Made by a program: the position numbers and the translations under genes
Notes under the pieces: model-generated
Seen by the model: only the letters and a program-made list of their open reading frames with translations
Told to the model about the DNA's origin: nothing
Database searches by the model: none
IMG/VR virus record: IMGVR_UViG_3300046515_000280
Coordinates: 1 to 39,963 of that record
Strand: one strand, 5' to 3'
Length of the DNA stretch: 39,963 bases
DNA from: a virus
Part shown: piece after piece, positions 31,744-35,529 of the stretch
Layout: each line of letters starts with the position of its first letter
How positions within the stretch are numbered: position 1 is the first letter of the stretch

Positions 31744-32399
31744 ACGCCTACATCAGCAACGATCTGAACATGGTCAAGGAGCTAGACCCGCAACGCCATG
31801 AGCTGGCCTTGAAGATGGAAGAGTTTTTGAGTCACGGAGGGACTATTGAGGTCTTGCGGGGGCCAACCTTTGTGCCACCACCGACGAGAAATGAGCCGCC
31901 ACGGCGCAAGAGATCGCCGATCAAGGCAAAGGTTGTGAATGAGCCTGTGCCGCGCAAAGTCGACAAGCTGACCCAGCGCGAACTTGAGCGCGAGGAACGT
32001 GCCGTAGCCCGAGCCAGAGAACGAGTTGCGCTGGTAGACAGAATCCGCAAGTTGGCTGAAACGATGACATATGCCCAGGCAGTTGAATCCACCGGCATAT
32101 GCTTGCGCAGCCTTCAAAAGATCGCAGTCGATGCAGGATTCAGGTTCCAGCCGGCCGTCCATTACAACAGCCAAAACCTGAAGCGTTATGTGCCGGATGA
32201 CGCCAAAGATTCCAAGGACGCCGAAAGAATAAAGGCGTTCATGGAGATCGGTCTTTCTCGCAACCAGGCCATGGTCAAGCTCGGCGTATCGTTCAAAACT
32301 TTCGCCAGACTCCTGGATAAATTCAGCATCGACTATCCCAAGCGCAAAGCAGAGCCTCATCCGGCCTTCTTCCCAAAAAACAAGGAAGCATCTCAATGA
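31740..32399 (+). CDS. helix-turn-helix-containing early protein
   Basis: 219 residues. The N-terminal third is charged and Pro-rich, with a basic stretch (PRRKRSPIKAK). Two HTH-like units follow: TYAQAVESTGICLRSLQKIA and GLSRNQAMVKLGVSFKTFAR, the latter ending in DKFSIDYPKR. It lies between exo and the first DGR target and overlaps both by four bases, so it is translationally coupled to the target gene. It may be a DNA-binding regulator; targets unknown. Confidence 0.65.
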   Translation: MNAYISNDLNMVKELDPQRHELALKMEEFLSHGGTIEVLRGPTFVPPPTRNEPPRRKRSPIKAKVVNEPVPRKVDKLTQRELEREERAVARARERVALVDRIRKLAETMTYAQAVESTGICLRSLQKIAVDAGFRFQPAVHYNSQNLKRYVPDDAKDSKDAERIKAFMEIGLSRNQAMVKLGVSFKTFARLLDKFSIDYPKRKAEPHPAFFPKNKEASQ

Positions 32400-32998
32400 A
32401 AGCCGAAATGATCACTCTTAAACATGGCGAAACCACGATCAAGATGCCCGCTTCATCACTGGCCAAGCTGGCAATGGCCAGTGTGTTTGCCCAGGTGCTT
32501 CCCCCCGCCGCCAACGTCCAACCGGTAGGGCCTACGGATATACCCGAACTCGGCGCTGAATGGCCTGGGCAAGGGGGTTTCAACGGCGGGCTGGTAGCGG
32601 CGCGCGGCGCTGTCCCAGCGCACTACCTGATCATCGCCAAGGAAGACGTCGGTGATCACAAATGGGGCGGACGCGATAAGGTGTCAGCAGCCGTCAGCAA
32701 AACTGACGGGGTGGCGAACACTGAAGCCCTGAAGCCCGAAGGCGATCACCCTGCGGCCAAGGCTGCATCGGCGTATTCCGCCGATGGCCACGCTGATTTC
32801 TACCTGCCTGCCTGCGCCGAGCTGTACCACTGCTGGGTGAACGTTCCCGAACTGTTCGCCAAAGACACCTGGTACTGGTCCTCAACGCAGCGCTCCGCCA
32901 ACCTCGCATTCCTCATGCTCTTCGATGCTGGCTATCAGCTCAACCTCGTCAAGGACAGCGATCTCCGCGTCCGCCCCGTCCGCAGATTCTTTATTTAA
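32396..32998 (+). CDS. DGR target protein 1 (DUF1566/C-type-lectin-like)
   Basis: 200 residues; ATG in a four-base overlap with the preceding gene. The first 40 residues are a polar leader without signal peptide. The C-terminal region has the DUF1566/Lcl-type pattern: DFYLPACAELYHCW, then DTWYWSSTQRS, a variable stretch and LRVRPVRRF at the end. VR1 (32886-32989) encodes residues about 164-198. Compared with the template, residues 170, 173, 175, 178, 180, 182, 184, 185, 187 and 188 are changed by adenine substitutions. The fold is known to tolerate massive surface variation, so this protein should be a variable binding protein. Its ligand and location (virion, cytoplasm or envelope) are not shown. 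Confidence 0.9.
   Translation: MKAEMITLKHGETTIKMPASSLAKLAMASVFAQVLPPAANVQPVGPTDIPELGAEWPGQGGFNGGLVAARGAVPAHYLIIAKEDVGDHKWGGRDKVSAAVSKTDGVANTEALKPEGDHPAAKAASAYSADGHADFYLPACAELYHCWVNVPELFAKDTWYWSSTQRSANLAFLMLFDAGYQLNLVKDSDLRVRPVRRFFI
32886..32989 (+). repeat. DGR variable repeat VR1
   Basis: 104 bases aligned without gaps to the template at 34279-34382. It starts CGCAGCGCTCCGCC and ends with the invariant block CTCCGCGTCCGCCCCGTC + CGCAGATTC. I count 16 differences: 15 at template adenines (to C, T or G) and one G-to-T at 32962. Confidence 0.93.
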
Positions 32999-33030
32999 TC
33001 CTTCATTCATTCGTTGTTGATCTGGCACCG

Positions 33031-33050
33031 GGCGCATCAGCGCCTTTTTT
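33031..33050 (+). terminator. hairpin downstream of VR1, also terminator-like
   Basis: GGCGC pairs with GCGCC around ATCA, followed by six T residues. It begins 42 bases after the end of VR1. DGRs often need a GC-rich hairpin downstream of the VR for retrohoming; the T-run means it could also end or attenuate the transcript between the two targets. Confidence 0.7.
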
Positions 33051-33075
33051 GTTGCCTTCGAAAAGAGGAAAGACC

Positions 33076-33696
33076 ATGACCGCAGTTCAGAAAGAAGCGC
33101 CAGCAGTGACCATTCCCGAGATCGGCCAGCCATTCGGCGGCGGCTTCTTCTCCGGCATCACCCGCGATCCTGACACCGGCAAGCGCTACCTGAATATCAC
33201 CGCCGGCGCCGCGCATGAGCTGGCCGGTGCCTGGGGCGAGTACGGCGATAAGATCGAAGGCGCCGACAGCTTCACCAACAGTCGCGGCAATACTGAGGCG
33301 ATGGCGGTAGCAGGCAGCGAACTGGCGCAGAAGGTGCTGGCCTTGGACATCGGCGGATTCACCGACTGGGCAATCCCGGCGCGTGATGTGCAGGAGCTGC
33401 AGTACCGTCACTTCAAGCCGACTACCGAAACGAACTGGGCAGGGCGGCGCGACGGCGACAACCCCAACAGCGAGCCGGTCGGCTTGCTGTACAGCGAAGA
33501 GTCGCCGACCCAGACCACGCTGGCTGCCTTCCAAGAAGGTGGCGCAGAGGCCTTCCGCGATACCTGGTACTGGTCGAGTTCGCAGCGCTCCGCCCACTAC
33601 GCATTCGGCTTGACCTTCGATGATGGCGGTCAGTACGTCACCGTCAAGAGCTACGAGCTCCGCGTCCGCCCCGTCCGCAGCACGCTTATTGATTAA
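33076..33696 (+). CDS. DGR target protein 2 (DUF1566/C-type-lectin-like)
   Basis: 206 residues from ATG 33076 (MTAVQKEAPAVTIPEIGQPF), with GAGGAAA upstream; a longer reading to 33049 has no ribosome site. Same layout as target 1: an IPEIGQPFGGG start, FTDWAIPARDVQELQY in the middle, then DTWYWSSSQRS, variable stretch, and LRVRPVR. VR2 encodes residues about 169-202; twelve residues differ from the template (174, 175, 178-180, 185, 187-190, 192, 193). Identity to target 1 is low outside the C-terminal part, so this is an old, diverged duplicate served by the same template. No signal peptide. Confidence 0.9.
   Translation: MTAVQKEAPAVTIPEIGQPFGGGFFSGITRDPDTGKRYLNITAGAAHELAGAWGEYGDKIEGADSFTNSRGNTEAMAVAGSELAQKVLALDIGGFTDWAIPARDVQELQYRHFKPTTETNWAGRRDGDNPNSEPVGLLYSEESPTQTTLAAFQEGGAEAFRDTWYWSSSQRSAHYAFGLTFDDGGQYVTVKSYELRVRPVRSTLID
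33580..33680 (+). repeat. DGR variable repeat VR2
   Basis: 101 bases aligned without gaps to the template at 34278-34378. I count 15 differences, all at template adenines (to C, T and G). The 3' block through CCGTCCGCAG is unchanged; similarity stops there. Confidence 0.94.
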
Positions 33697-33710
33697 TTCA
33701 TTTATTCAAT

Positions 33711-33728
33711 CCGGCCGCTTGCGGCCGG
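33711..33728. repeat. GC-rich hairpin downstream of VR2
   Basis: CCGGCCG/CGGCCGG arms around CTTG (7-bp stem; the arms are symmetric for 8 bp with a 2-base centre). It begins 31 bases after VR2. No T-run follows, so it is not a terminator; it resembles the cruciform/hairpin element found downstream of VRs in other DGRs. Confidence 0.7.
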
Positions 33729-33749
33729 TTGCTCTTGGAGAGCAAGCCG

Positions 33750-34106
33750 ATGTCAATGCACACGGATTTGAGTATCTACAAAAGTTCGCTCGGCCTGCTA
33801 CAGATGGCCACGAATCTCACCCGCAACATACCCCGAGATCTCAAGCAGTCTCTCGGGAAGCGCGTTATTGATGAGTGCATCGACGTGCTGATGTTGATTG
33901 CCCGGGCTAACTCGACCCGGGACAAGCAGCCACACCTGACTTTGCTTGTCGAGAAGGTCCAGGTAATCGAGTTCCTGATGCGGCTTTTCAAAGAGAGTCG
34001 ATTTATCAGTGTCGGGCAGCACGCCACCGCGATAGAGATAACCAGTTCTATCGGCAAACAGGCGAATGCCTGGAAGCGCAACACCCCAGCCGCGCCCGCC
34101 ATCTGA
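33750..34106 (+). CDS. avd: DGR accessory variability protein Avd
   Basis: 118 residues from ATG 33750 (MSMHTDLSIYK), with GGAG 9 bases upstream. The four-helix-bundle Avd pattern is clear: LTRNIPRDLKQSLGKRVIDE, then a second helix ending LIARAN, DKQPHLTLLVEKVQVIEFLM in helix three, and the typical FKESRFISVGQHATAIEIT followed by IGKQANAWKR. Avd forms a pentamer that binds the template RNA and the reverse transcriptase and is needed for adenine-mutagenic cDNA synthesis. It lies between target 2 and the template, the standard order. Confidence 0.88.
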   Translation: MSMHTDLSIYKSSLGLLQMATNLTRNIPRDLKQSLGKRVIDECIDVLMLIARANSTRDKQPHLTLLVEKVQVIEFLMRLFKESRFISVGQHATAIEITSSIGKQANAWKRNTPAAPAI

Positions 34107-34277
34107 GAGTTACGGCTTTCAGGTCTGTGCGAATTGAATCTGGTCGTGCCGCTGGCCCCTGGGTCACCGCCATGCGCATCAGAGATACCGACGGTCTAAA
34201 ACGTCCGTATAGGTCTCGCGCAGTTTCCTCGCTGATCGGTTATGCCTTCGGCTTGGCGACATAGATAGCACGATAGG
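34107..34277 (+). other. spacer between avd and the template repeat
   Basis: 171 bases with no gene that I can support. It contains short dyads (for example GACGG ... CCGT near 34195-34210). It is probably the 5' part of the DGR template RNA. Confidence 0.5.
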
Positions 34278-34382
34278 TCGCAGCGCTCCGCCAACAACGC
34301 ATTCAACATGAACTTCGATGATGGCAATCAGAACAACAACGACAAGAACAACGAGCTCCGCGTCCGCCCCGTCCGCAGATTC
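34278..34382 (+). repeat. DGR template repeat TR
   Basis: 105 bases. Read in the target frame it would give mostly Asn codons (AAC/AAT at nine to ten positions), the signature of an adenine-dense template. Its 3' end matches both VRs exactly, except one base in VR1. Bases 34318-34382 are also coding for the first residues of the reverse transcriptase in another frame. Confidence 0.94.
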
Positions 34383-35529
34383 GACTGTTGGTCCCTACCC
34401 GTTCAGCGAACTGGTTCAGGCCTATTACGACTGCCGGCGCACGAAGCGCAACAGCGCCAGTGCATTGGCCTTCGAGTTGGACCTGGAACGCAACCTGATC
34501 GGCCTACACGACGACCTGCTCGCCGGCACTTACCGGCCAGGCCGCTCGATATGCTTCGTGGTCACCCGGCCGAAAGCCCGCGAGGTTTGGGCGGCAGCCT
34601 TCCGGGACCGCGTCGTCCACCACCTACTGTACAACCGCGTGGCACCTCGCTTCTACGCCAGCTTCATAGTGGACAGTTGCGCCTGCATTCCCGGGCGCGG
34701 CACGTTGTACGCCGCCACCCGGCTTGAGGCGAAGATCCGCAGCGCCAGCCAGAACTGGTCGAGGCCCTGCTGGTATCTAAAGCTTGACCTGGCCAACTTC
34801 TTCGTCGCGATCGACAAGCAGGTGCTTCGCCGGCAGTTGGCCGCCAAGATCACCGAACCCTGGTGGCTGGCACTCGCCGAGCAGATCCTGATGCACGACC
34901 CGCGCGAAGACTACGAGGTACGCAGCCCGGCCCATCTGTTCAACCGGGTACCGCAGCACAAGCGCCTCACCGCGCAACCGGCGCATCTCGGACTGCCGAT
35001 CGGCAACCTGTCTTCACAGTTCTTCGCGAACGTCTACCTCGACGCGCTGGACCAGTTCGCAAAGCACAAGCTCGGCGCCAAGCATTACGTCCGCTACGTC
35101 GATGACTTCGTGTTCCTGCATGAATCACCGCAACAGCTGAATGCCTGGAAGGTCGAGGTCGAAGCATTCCTGCCCAGCCTAGGTGCCAAGCTGAACCCGA
35201 CGAAGACCATTCTGCAGCCGGTCGACCGCGGCGTCGACTTCGTTGGCCACGTCATCAAGCCTTGGCGGCGAACCACCCGCAAGCGTTCGCTGGCCCAGGC
35301 GCTGAAACGGACCGCAGCGGCACCGGCCGAAGACCTTAGGGAAACGGCCAACAGCTACTTCGGCCTGCTCAGTCAGGCCAGCCACAGCGAGAGAGATCGC
35401 GAGAAGCTGGCCAATGTCGTGCTGAAGCGCGGGCATAGCGTCAATTCGGCGCTGAGCAAGACCTATAAGAAGGTGGACGCATTTCAGCCCCGTAGGCCAG
35501 ATCACGCCAGCGCGCCAAATCGGAAATAA
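34318..35529 (+). CDS. DGR reverse transcriptase
   Basis: 403 residues. The first 22 residues are encoded by the template repeat (MMAIRTTTTRTTSS...). The RT domain starts near residue 27 (YPFSELVQAYYDC). Key motifs: PKAREVWAAAFRDRVVHHLL, LKLDLANFF with Asp157, GLPIGNLSSQ at residues 225-234 (the SQ form is characteristic of DGR RTs), and the catalytic YVDD at 260-263. A DGR RT copies the template RNA with adenine misincorporation, and the cDNA replaces the VR. An in-frame TGA at 34309 means the start must be ATG 34318 or 34321, inside the template; no clear ribosome site precedes it. The C-terminus is basic and helical. Confidence 0.93.
   Translation: MMAIRTTTTRTTSSASAPSADSTVGPYPFSELVQAYYDCRRTKRNSASALAFELDLERNLIGLHDDLLAGTYRPGRSICFVVTRPKAREVWAAAFRDRVVHHLLYNRVAPRFYASFIVDSCACIPGRGTLYAATRLEAKIRSASQNWSRPCWYLKLDLANFFVAIDKQVLRRQLAAKITEPWWLALAEQILMHDPREDYEVRSPAHLFNRVPQHKRLTAQPAHLGLPIGNLSSQFFANVYLDALDQFAKHKLGAKHYVRYVDDFVFLHESPQQLNAWKVEVEAFLPSLGAKLNPTKTILQPVDRGVDFVGHVIKPWRRTTRKRSLAQALKRTAAAPAEDLRETANSYFGLLSQASHSERDREKLANVVLKRGHSVNSALSKTYKKVDAFQPRRPDHASAPNRK

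Follow-up and report, generated by a model that had tools for sequence, protein, structure and literature searches.

Do the two GC-rich hairpins that follow the variable repeats of a phage DGR both serve the retroelement? The window, a stretch of 39,963 nt (IMG/VR virus record IMGVR_UViG_3300046515_000280), carries a complete DGR in the order VR1 gene, VR2 gene, avd, template repeat (TR) and reverse transcriptase (RT), all on the + strand (Table 1). TR and VRs form pairs with adenine-specific differences, and the cassette holds RT and Avd genes (RVT_1 and bAvd, Pfam). The element is assigned to a Pseudomonas phage and rewrites its own genes. An earlier note had taken both hairpins, H1 after VR1 and H2 after VR2, to be DGR target hairpins. 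This stands for H2, on the grounds of a VR-tied position, a covarying GC stem and DNA-stable loops, and probably fails for H1. The two are different things, and within one cassette a true target hairpin can be told apart from a look-alike that is most likely a terminator.

Table 1. Features of the DGR cassette in the window.
Feature	Position	Strand	Sequence or basis
VR1 target gene	32396..32998	+	ORF; weak Lcl_C (C-type-lectin-like) C-terminal domain
VR1	32886..32989	+	TR/VR scan; 15/32 TR adenines differ, 1 other mismatch
AT island 3' of VR1 IMH	32986..33015	+	ATTCTTTATTTAATCCTTCATTCATTCGTT
H1	33031..33050	+	GGCGC-ATCA-GCGCC + TTTTTT; most likely intrinsic terminator
VR2 target gene	33076..33696	+	Lcl_C-like C-terminal domain
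VR2	33580..33680	+	15/31 TR adenines differ, 0 other mismatches
AT island 3' of VR2 IMH	33681..33710	+	CACGCTTATTGATTAATTCATTTATTCAAT
H2	33711..33728	+	CCGGCCG-CTTG-CGGCCGG; proposed DGR target DNA hairpin/cruciform
avd (bAvd family)	33750..34106	+	Pfam PF22296 E 3.4e-12
RT-15 structured RNA (RF03018)	34090..34280	+	Rfam 175 bits, E 2.2e-42; directly upstream of TR
Template repeat TR	34278..34382	+	TR/VR scan
DGR reverse transcriptase	34390..35529	+	RVT_1 E 2e-17; start codon uncertain

The Pfam Lcl_C matches of the target genes lie under the curated cut-off (E 0.0022 for the VR1 gene, 8.8e-7 for the VR2 gene). The DGR targets here (32396-33696) and in two relatives (L095, L099) are small lectin-like genes, not tail fibres, and in relatives they lie near replication and recombination genes (SSB, RecT, endonuclease). 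The RT-15 RNA abuts the TR (34090-34382 together), and the TR passes into the RT gene without a spacer; an alternative ATG-started RT frame opens within the TR at 34318. In BPP-1 the TR and RT are separated by a structured spacer that primes the cDNA, and priming in the DGR of the window may differ.

For comparison, about 90 loci were gathered through the RT from IMG/VR and GTDB genomes, nearly all of them Pseudomonas, and named phages were added. The scan for VRs disregarded TR adenines, and with BPP-1 as positive control the pipeline retrieved GCGGGGCC-GAAA-GGCCCCGC. Hairpins with a score of at least 18 were called strong. Covariation was counted on the CCGG-like H2 types alone (alignment A2); a single alignment of all H2 types was dropped for this purpose because MAFFT displaces the GGGCGC types by one column. 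Rfam gave no match for H1, H2 or the three-way element.

Both hairpins exist as described in the earlier note. H1 has a 5-bp stem (33031-33044), or 6 pairs counting a terminal G-T (33030-33045), followed by the T-run at 33045-33050; H2 has 8 pairs if the C and G of its loop pair too. TR/VR identity stops at 32989 (VR1) and 33680 (VR2), and the gaps measured are 41 nt (VR1-H1) and 30 nt (VR2-H2), where 42 and 31 had been claimed. As ssDNA, both folded better than their dinucleotide shuffles, with z values of about -3.4 (H1) and -3.5 (H2). Random 75-nt windows drawn from the same contigs hold a hairpin of H1 strength in ~10% of cases and one of H2 strength in ~0.9%. H1 alone is unremarkable because of this ~10% chance frequency, and the argument must rest on conservation. 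The similar distance of the two hairpins from their repeats, which had been read as a sign of function, fails among relatives: with distances counted from the end of the IMH, H2 mostly lies at 28-33 nt and H1 at 31-58 nt.

A strong hairpin was found 3' of 55 of the 71 distinct VR2 ends; the corresponding rates were 1.8% for shuffles, 2.3% for random windows and zero 3' of the TR. It starts a median of 30 nt from the IMH (SD 2.1). In alignment A2, 97.8% of the stem cells are paired, with double changes at pairs 4 and 5, where the CCGGCCG types show two-sided changes (CCGGTCG/CGACCGG, CCGCCCG/CGGGCGG), and the covariation score was reached by 0/500 shuffles. Elsewhere on the RT tree, GGGCGC or AGTCGC stems substitute the whole hairpin in the same place; counting losses, the H2 stem changed at least 24 times on that tree and its loop class at least 18 times. 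Unrelated tail-gene DGRs also have hairpins of the H2 kind at this position. Compared with the BPP-1 type, H2 has the 7-10 bp GC-rich stem 4-34 bp past the VR (7-8 bp, at 30 bp), and the structure rather than the sequence of the stem is conserved; its 4-nt sense-strand loop, CTTG, is not GRNA and fits gCNNGc. By these features H2 behaves as a DGR target hairpin, and it probably aids the writing-in of new variants.

The loops of the H2 slot point in the same direction. In their title, Nakano et al. 2002 (as listed among the references of PMC5090098 and PMC2984261) name cGNNAg, cGNABg, cCNNGg and gCNNGc as stable DNA tetraloops, and all four classes are present in the slot among relatives: GATA, GGCA, GTTA and GCCA closed by c-g, GGAC (L081), CTCG closed by c-g (L078), and CTTG, CCTG, CAAG, CGTG and CTCG closed by g-c. 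With the motifs taken as the title gives them, 11 of the 12 distinct types of closing pair and loop fit, the sole misfit being GCAA closed by g-c, while the RNA rules (GNRA, UNCG, gCUUGc) fit 2/12. The DNA motifs fit 7/97 control tetraloop hairpins of the same contigs and 0/8 H1 loops. The p values (4e-8 for the random-loop null and 1e-12 for the control tetraloops) ignore shared ancestry and are indicative, as loop types are not phylogenetically independent. GNA triloops occur in L059, L088 and L087. Of ten unrelated DGR phages, nine have cGRNAg loops, including BalMu-1 (interrupted stem, judged by eye), the loop of the tenth, FP_Lagaffe, being 7 nt long; c-g-closed GRNA is itself a subset of cGNNAg. 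Since 11/12 loop types fall in DNA classes and 2/12 in RNA classes, H2 looks selected as DNA, and we take selection in this slot to favour high stability of the hairpin as DNA; against a DNA-only reading of H2, gCUUGc forms a stable tetraloop in RNA as well. Guo et al. (2011) left open whether the loop acts through DNA stability, nuclease strand bias or contact with a DGR component (PMC3240598). The repeated natural swaps among ultra-stable DNA loop classes favour a stability role and indicate which loops to test.

H1 has another set of relations. Its short stem is almost invariant among relatives, with loops of 3-4 nt, and TTTT stands directly 3' of the stem in 39/45, as T6 does in the window, which is the arrangement of an intrinsic terminator. 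The next ATG follows at 27-32 nt in 42/45, whereas the distance from the VR1 IMH varies over 31-58 nt. Against the 7-10 bp stem, GRNA loop and 4-34 bp distance of the BPP-1 type, H1 has 5 bp, ATCA and 41 nt. Two relatives carry a cGNNAg hairpin 31 nt past VR1 (TGGCC-GATA-GGCCA in L080, GGCC-GTCA-GGCC in L042), and an H1-type T-tailed hairpin stands further on, at 55-58 nt from VR1. Counting in the other direction, H1 occupies the canonical slot in the L074-L082 clade, 31-36 nt past VR1. Because of the T-run, the ATG-fixed spacing, the separate hairpins of L080 and L042 and its replacement in other relatives, H1 is best read as a terminator, most likely an intrinsic one. A terminator role for H1, raised in passing in the earlier note, is the better reading, given the T-run, the spacing and loops outside the DNA-stable classes.

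Where H1 is replaced between target genes, a conserved ~72-nt structured element stands in its place (GCAGGCGATTC..CAGACCAGAAGC..GCCGGGAAGCGCCGGC..GCCTGC; L041:3125-3196). It occurs without H1 3' of VR1 in L041, L043, L072, L078, L081, L083, L085, L096 and L101, and 3' of VR3 in L010 and L019; its closing stem shows compensatory and wobble changes, and the L041 copy had no match in Rfam at E <= 1. H1 was also considered as a generic phage terminator, but 69 of the 70 IMG/VR occurrences of its motif with GTTGC are at this locus; the motif is locus-specific, and searching for it does not discriminate.

The earlier note also held that DGRs such as BPP-1 need a hairpin or cruciform just downstream of the IMH for efficient target recognition, and named in advance active related loci without one as the counter-evidence. 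Such loci were found, and "need" is too strong: this DGR family has no strict requirement for a hairpin. L052 and L063, of the same RT clade, have identical RTs, flanks 99.7-100% identical and no GC hairpin 3' of either VR, yet differ at 18/36 TR-adenine sites in VR2 (no other change) and 18/36 in VR1 (1 other change). Among P. aeruginosa phages, phPA-G and Haboob (L096, L101) show the same pattern with somewhat more diverged flanks (97% and 93%), and the hairpin-less Burkholderia phage Magia and Shewanella phage QDWS show A-specific differences from their TRs. DGRs of this RT clade can thus stay active without a GC hairpin, and a BPP-1 reconstitution (2026) likewise found the stem-loop important and not strictly required (PMC12875486). 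VR1, with H1 only, has an A-mismatch fraction of 0.456 and VR2 one of 0.446; VR1 being as diversified as VR2, either H1 may serve homing too or a hairpin is not needed. Diversification did not track hairpin state (0.446, 0.456, 0.443), but the A-mismatch level is a poor clock. The 28 VRs classed as having no hairpin include one-mismatch or wobble stems (L007, L010, L029, L074) and one deletion (L047).

The IMH and the hairpin are separated by an AT island of 30 bp. Over the final 20 nt of the VR, G+C is ~0.8; it is 0.24-0.28 over the next 30 nt and 0.67-0.78 at the hairpin, with a contig mean of 0.59. The island holds ATTYA/TTCATT repeats ~7-8 nt apart, ~2.2-2.5 per VR vs 0.3 in shuffles. An AT content of at least 0.69 was found in the 30 nt 3' of 76% of 106 VRs and 0/537 other ORF stops, the latter taken from high-GC3 ORFs of the same contigs only. 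It follows VR1, VR2 and VR3, is kept in most hairpin-less DGRs and is absent 3' of the TR; likeness among distant loci is 0.57, vs 0.42 expected from composition. The third, more distant VRs (L010:1080-1184, L019:1083-1187, L083:1404-1504) have the island and lack a canonical hairpin 30 nt downstream. Pairing with the DGR RNA (34000-34420) was considered and dropped, as shuffled sequences yield shared or complementary runs at least as long. AT-rich flanks lower the cost of melting or cruciform extrusion, and the island would ease either beside the IMH. It is a candidate target element; no description of an AT island or a DNA-tetraloop rule for DGRs was found in the open-access papers searched.

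H2 might instead be an RNA element of the avd leader, a weak terminator or a translational control unrelated to homing. It does lie in that leader, 21-25 nt 5' of the avd ATG in most loci, it adjoins a second hairpin over the avd Shine-Dalgarno, and a loose terminator scan flags it (5 T in 8). However, its spacing is tighter to the VR than to the ATG (5-57 nt, SD 6.6), its loops obey DNA rather than RNA stability rules, and unrelated tail-gene DGRs hold the same kind of hairpin in the same slot. Nor does a contiguous T-run follow: TTGCTCTT is interrupted and not conserved, 0/56 begin with TTTT, and T-richness is not conserved, with 0-1 T in 16/56. We consider this reading quite improbable. The neighbouring hairpin (TTGCTCT-tgg-AGAGCAA, 33729-33745) has counterparts at the avd Shine-Dalgarno position of other loci (GCCC-aagga-GGGC or GGCCA-gga-TGGCC), which suggests translational control of avd.

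That both hairpins are target hairpins, H1 doubling as terminator, also seems unlikely. H1 always lies 3' of an AT island and persists across most of the Pseudomonas clade, VR1 has diversified recently (L030 and L033 differ at 13/32 A sites, with flanks 100% identical), and a likeness to group IIC introns targeting terminators has been pointed out (Guo 2011, PMC3240598). Yet BPP-1 becomes inactive once 2 of its 8 bp are removed and the H1 stem has 5, its loops are in none of the DNA-stable classes, its spacing is variable from VR1 and fixed to the next gene, and L080 and L042 carry canonical hairpins beside it. We likewise doubt that the hairpins are passive and the island with its ATTYA repeats is the real target element. 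The island's frequency after VRs, including those of hairpin-less DGRs, and the activity of L052 and L063 speak for this, but a useless H2 would neither covary nor be repeatedly replaced, and BPP-1 has a spacer of only 4 bp and needs its hairpin for efficiency.

The account that we regard as likely is that H2 is the cis-acting target hairpin of VR2, with a loop of any ultra-stable DNA type, that H1 is probably a partial intrinsic terminator between the VR1 and VR2 genes, and that VR1, with no canonical hairpin, relies mainly on its IMH and AT island. H2 would form as DNA, either a ssDNA hairpin or a cruciform, 30 bp beyond the IMH and beside an island expected to melt easily. Together they would hold the 3' end of VR2 open, and mutagenised TR cDNA would anneal to the target strand at the IMH and take the place of VR2, the hairpin raising homing efficiency. 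The loop need not be GRNA under this scheme but would have to be an ultra-stable DNA loop. Positions, conservation, covariation, loop classes, the T-run, the AT island and diversification without a hairpin are read directly from sequence, whereas extrusion as DNA, the effect on homing, terminator activity and the role of the island are inferred. A stem-loop as target-opening aid has been proposed for BPP-1, where pairing is argued to use transiently single-stranded target DNA and the stem-loop to slow re-annealing (PMC12875486). More tentatively, and short of an even chance in our judgement, target hairpins in general may be selected as ultra-stable DNA, with GRNA a subset of a cGNNAg/cGNABg/cCNNGg/gCNNGc/cGNAg rule, loop classes swapping freely, and in RT-15-type DGRs the 30-bp ATTYA island primary and the hairpin a booster.

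Among the closest known systems is BPP-1 (Guo et al. 2011, PMC3240598), which shares the VR-avd-TR-RT order and whose target-gene tail carries, as with H2, a GC-rich inverted repeat immediately past the IMH, with stem sequence free and pairing kept. The H2 distance is inside the published 4-34 bp range (PMC3240598); H2 differs in its CTTG loop, where BPP-1 has GRNA, and in its 30-bp AT-rich spacer, against 4 bp. H1 departs from BPP-1 in stem length and distance and resembles intrinsic (rho-independent) terminators, with a GC stem and T6 conserved together in an intergenic position; its 5-bp stem is short for this class, to which it is assigned from sequence. The hairpins of the archaeal DUSEL4 DGR (PMC4372165) lie near the IMH and have a constrained purine-rich loop (GRA trinucleotide), which the GNA triloops of L059, L088 and L087 recall, but they stand inside the target gene, unlike those described here. 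Group IIC introns target terminator stem-loops recognised as ssDNA, a further case of retroelement insertion beside terminator-like stems (PMC3240598), although in these, unlike in DGRs, the loop sequence is reported to be unimportant.
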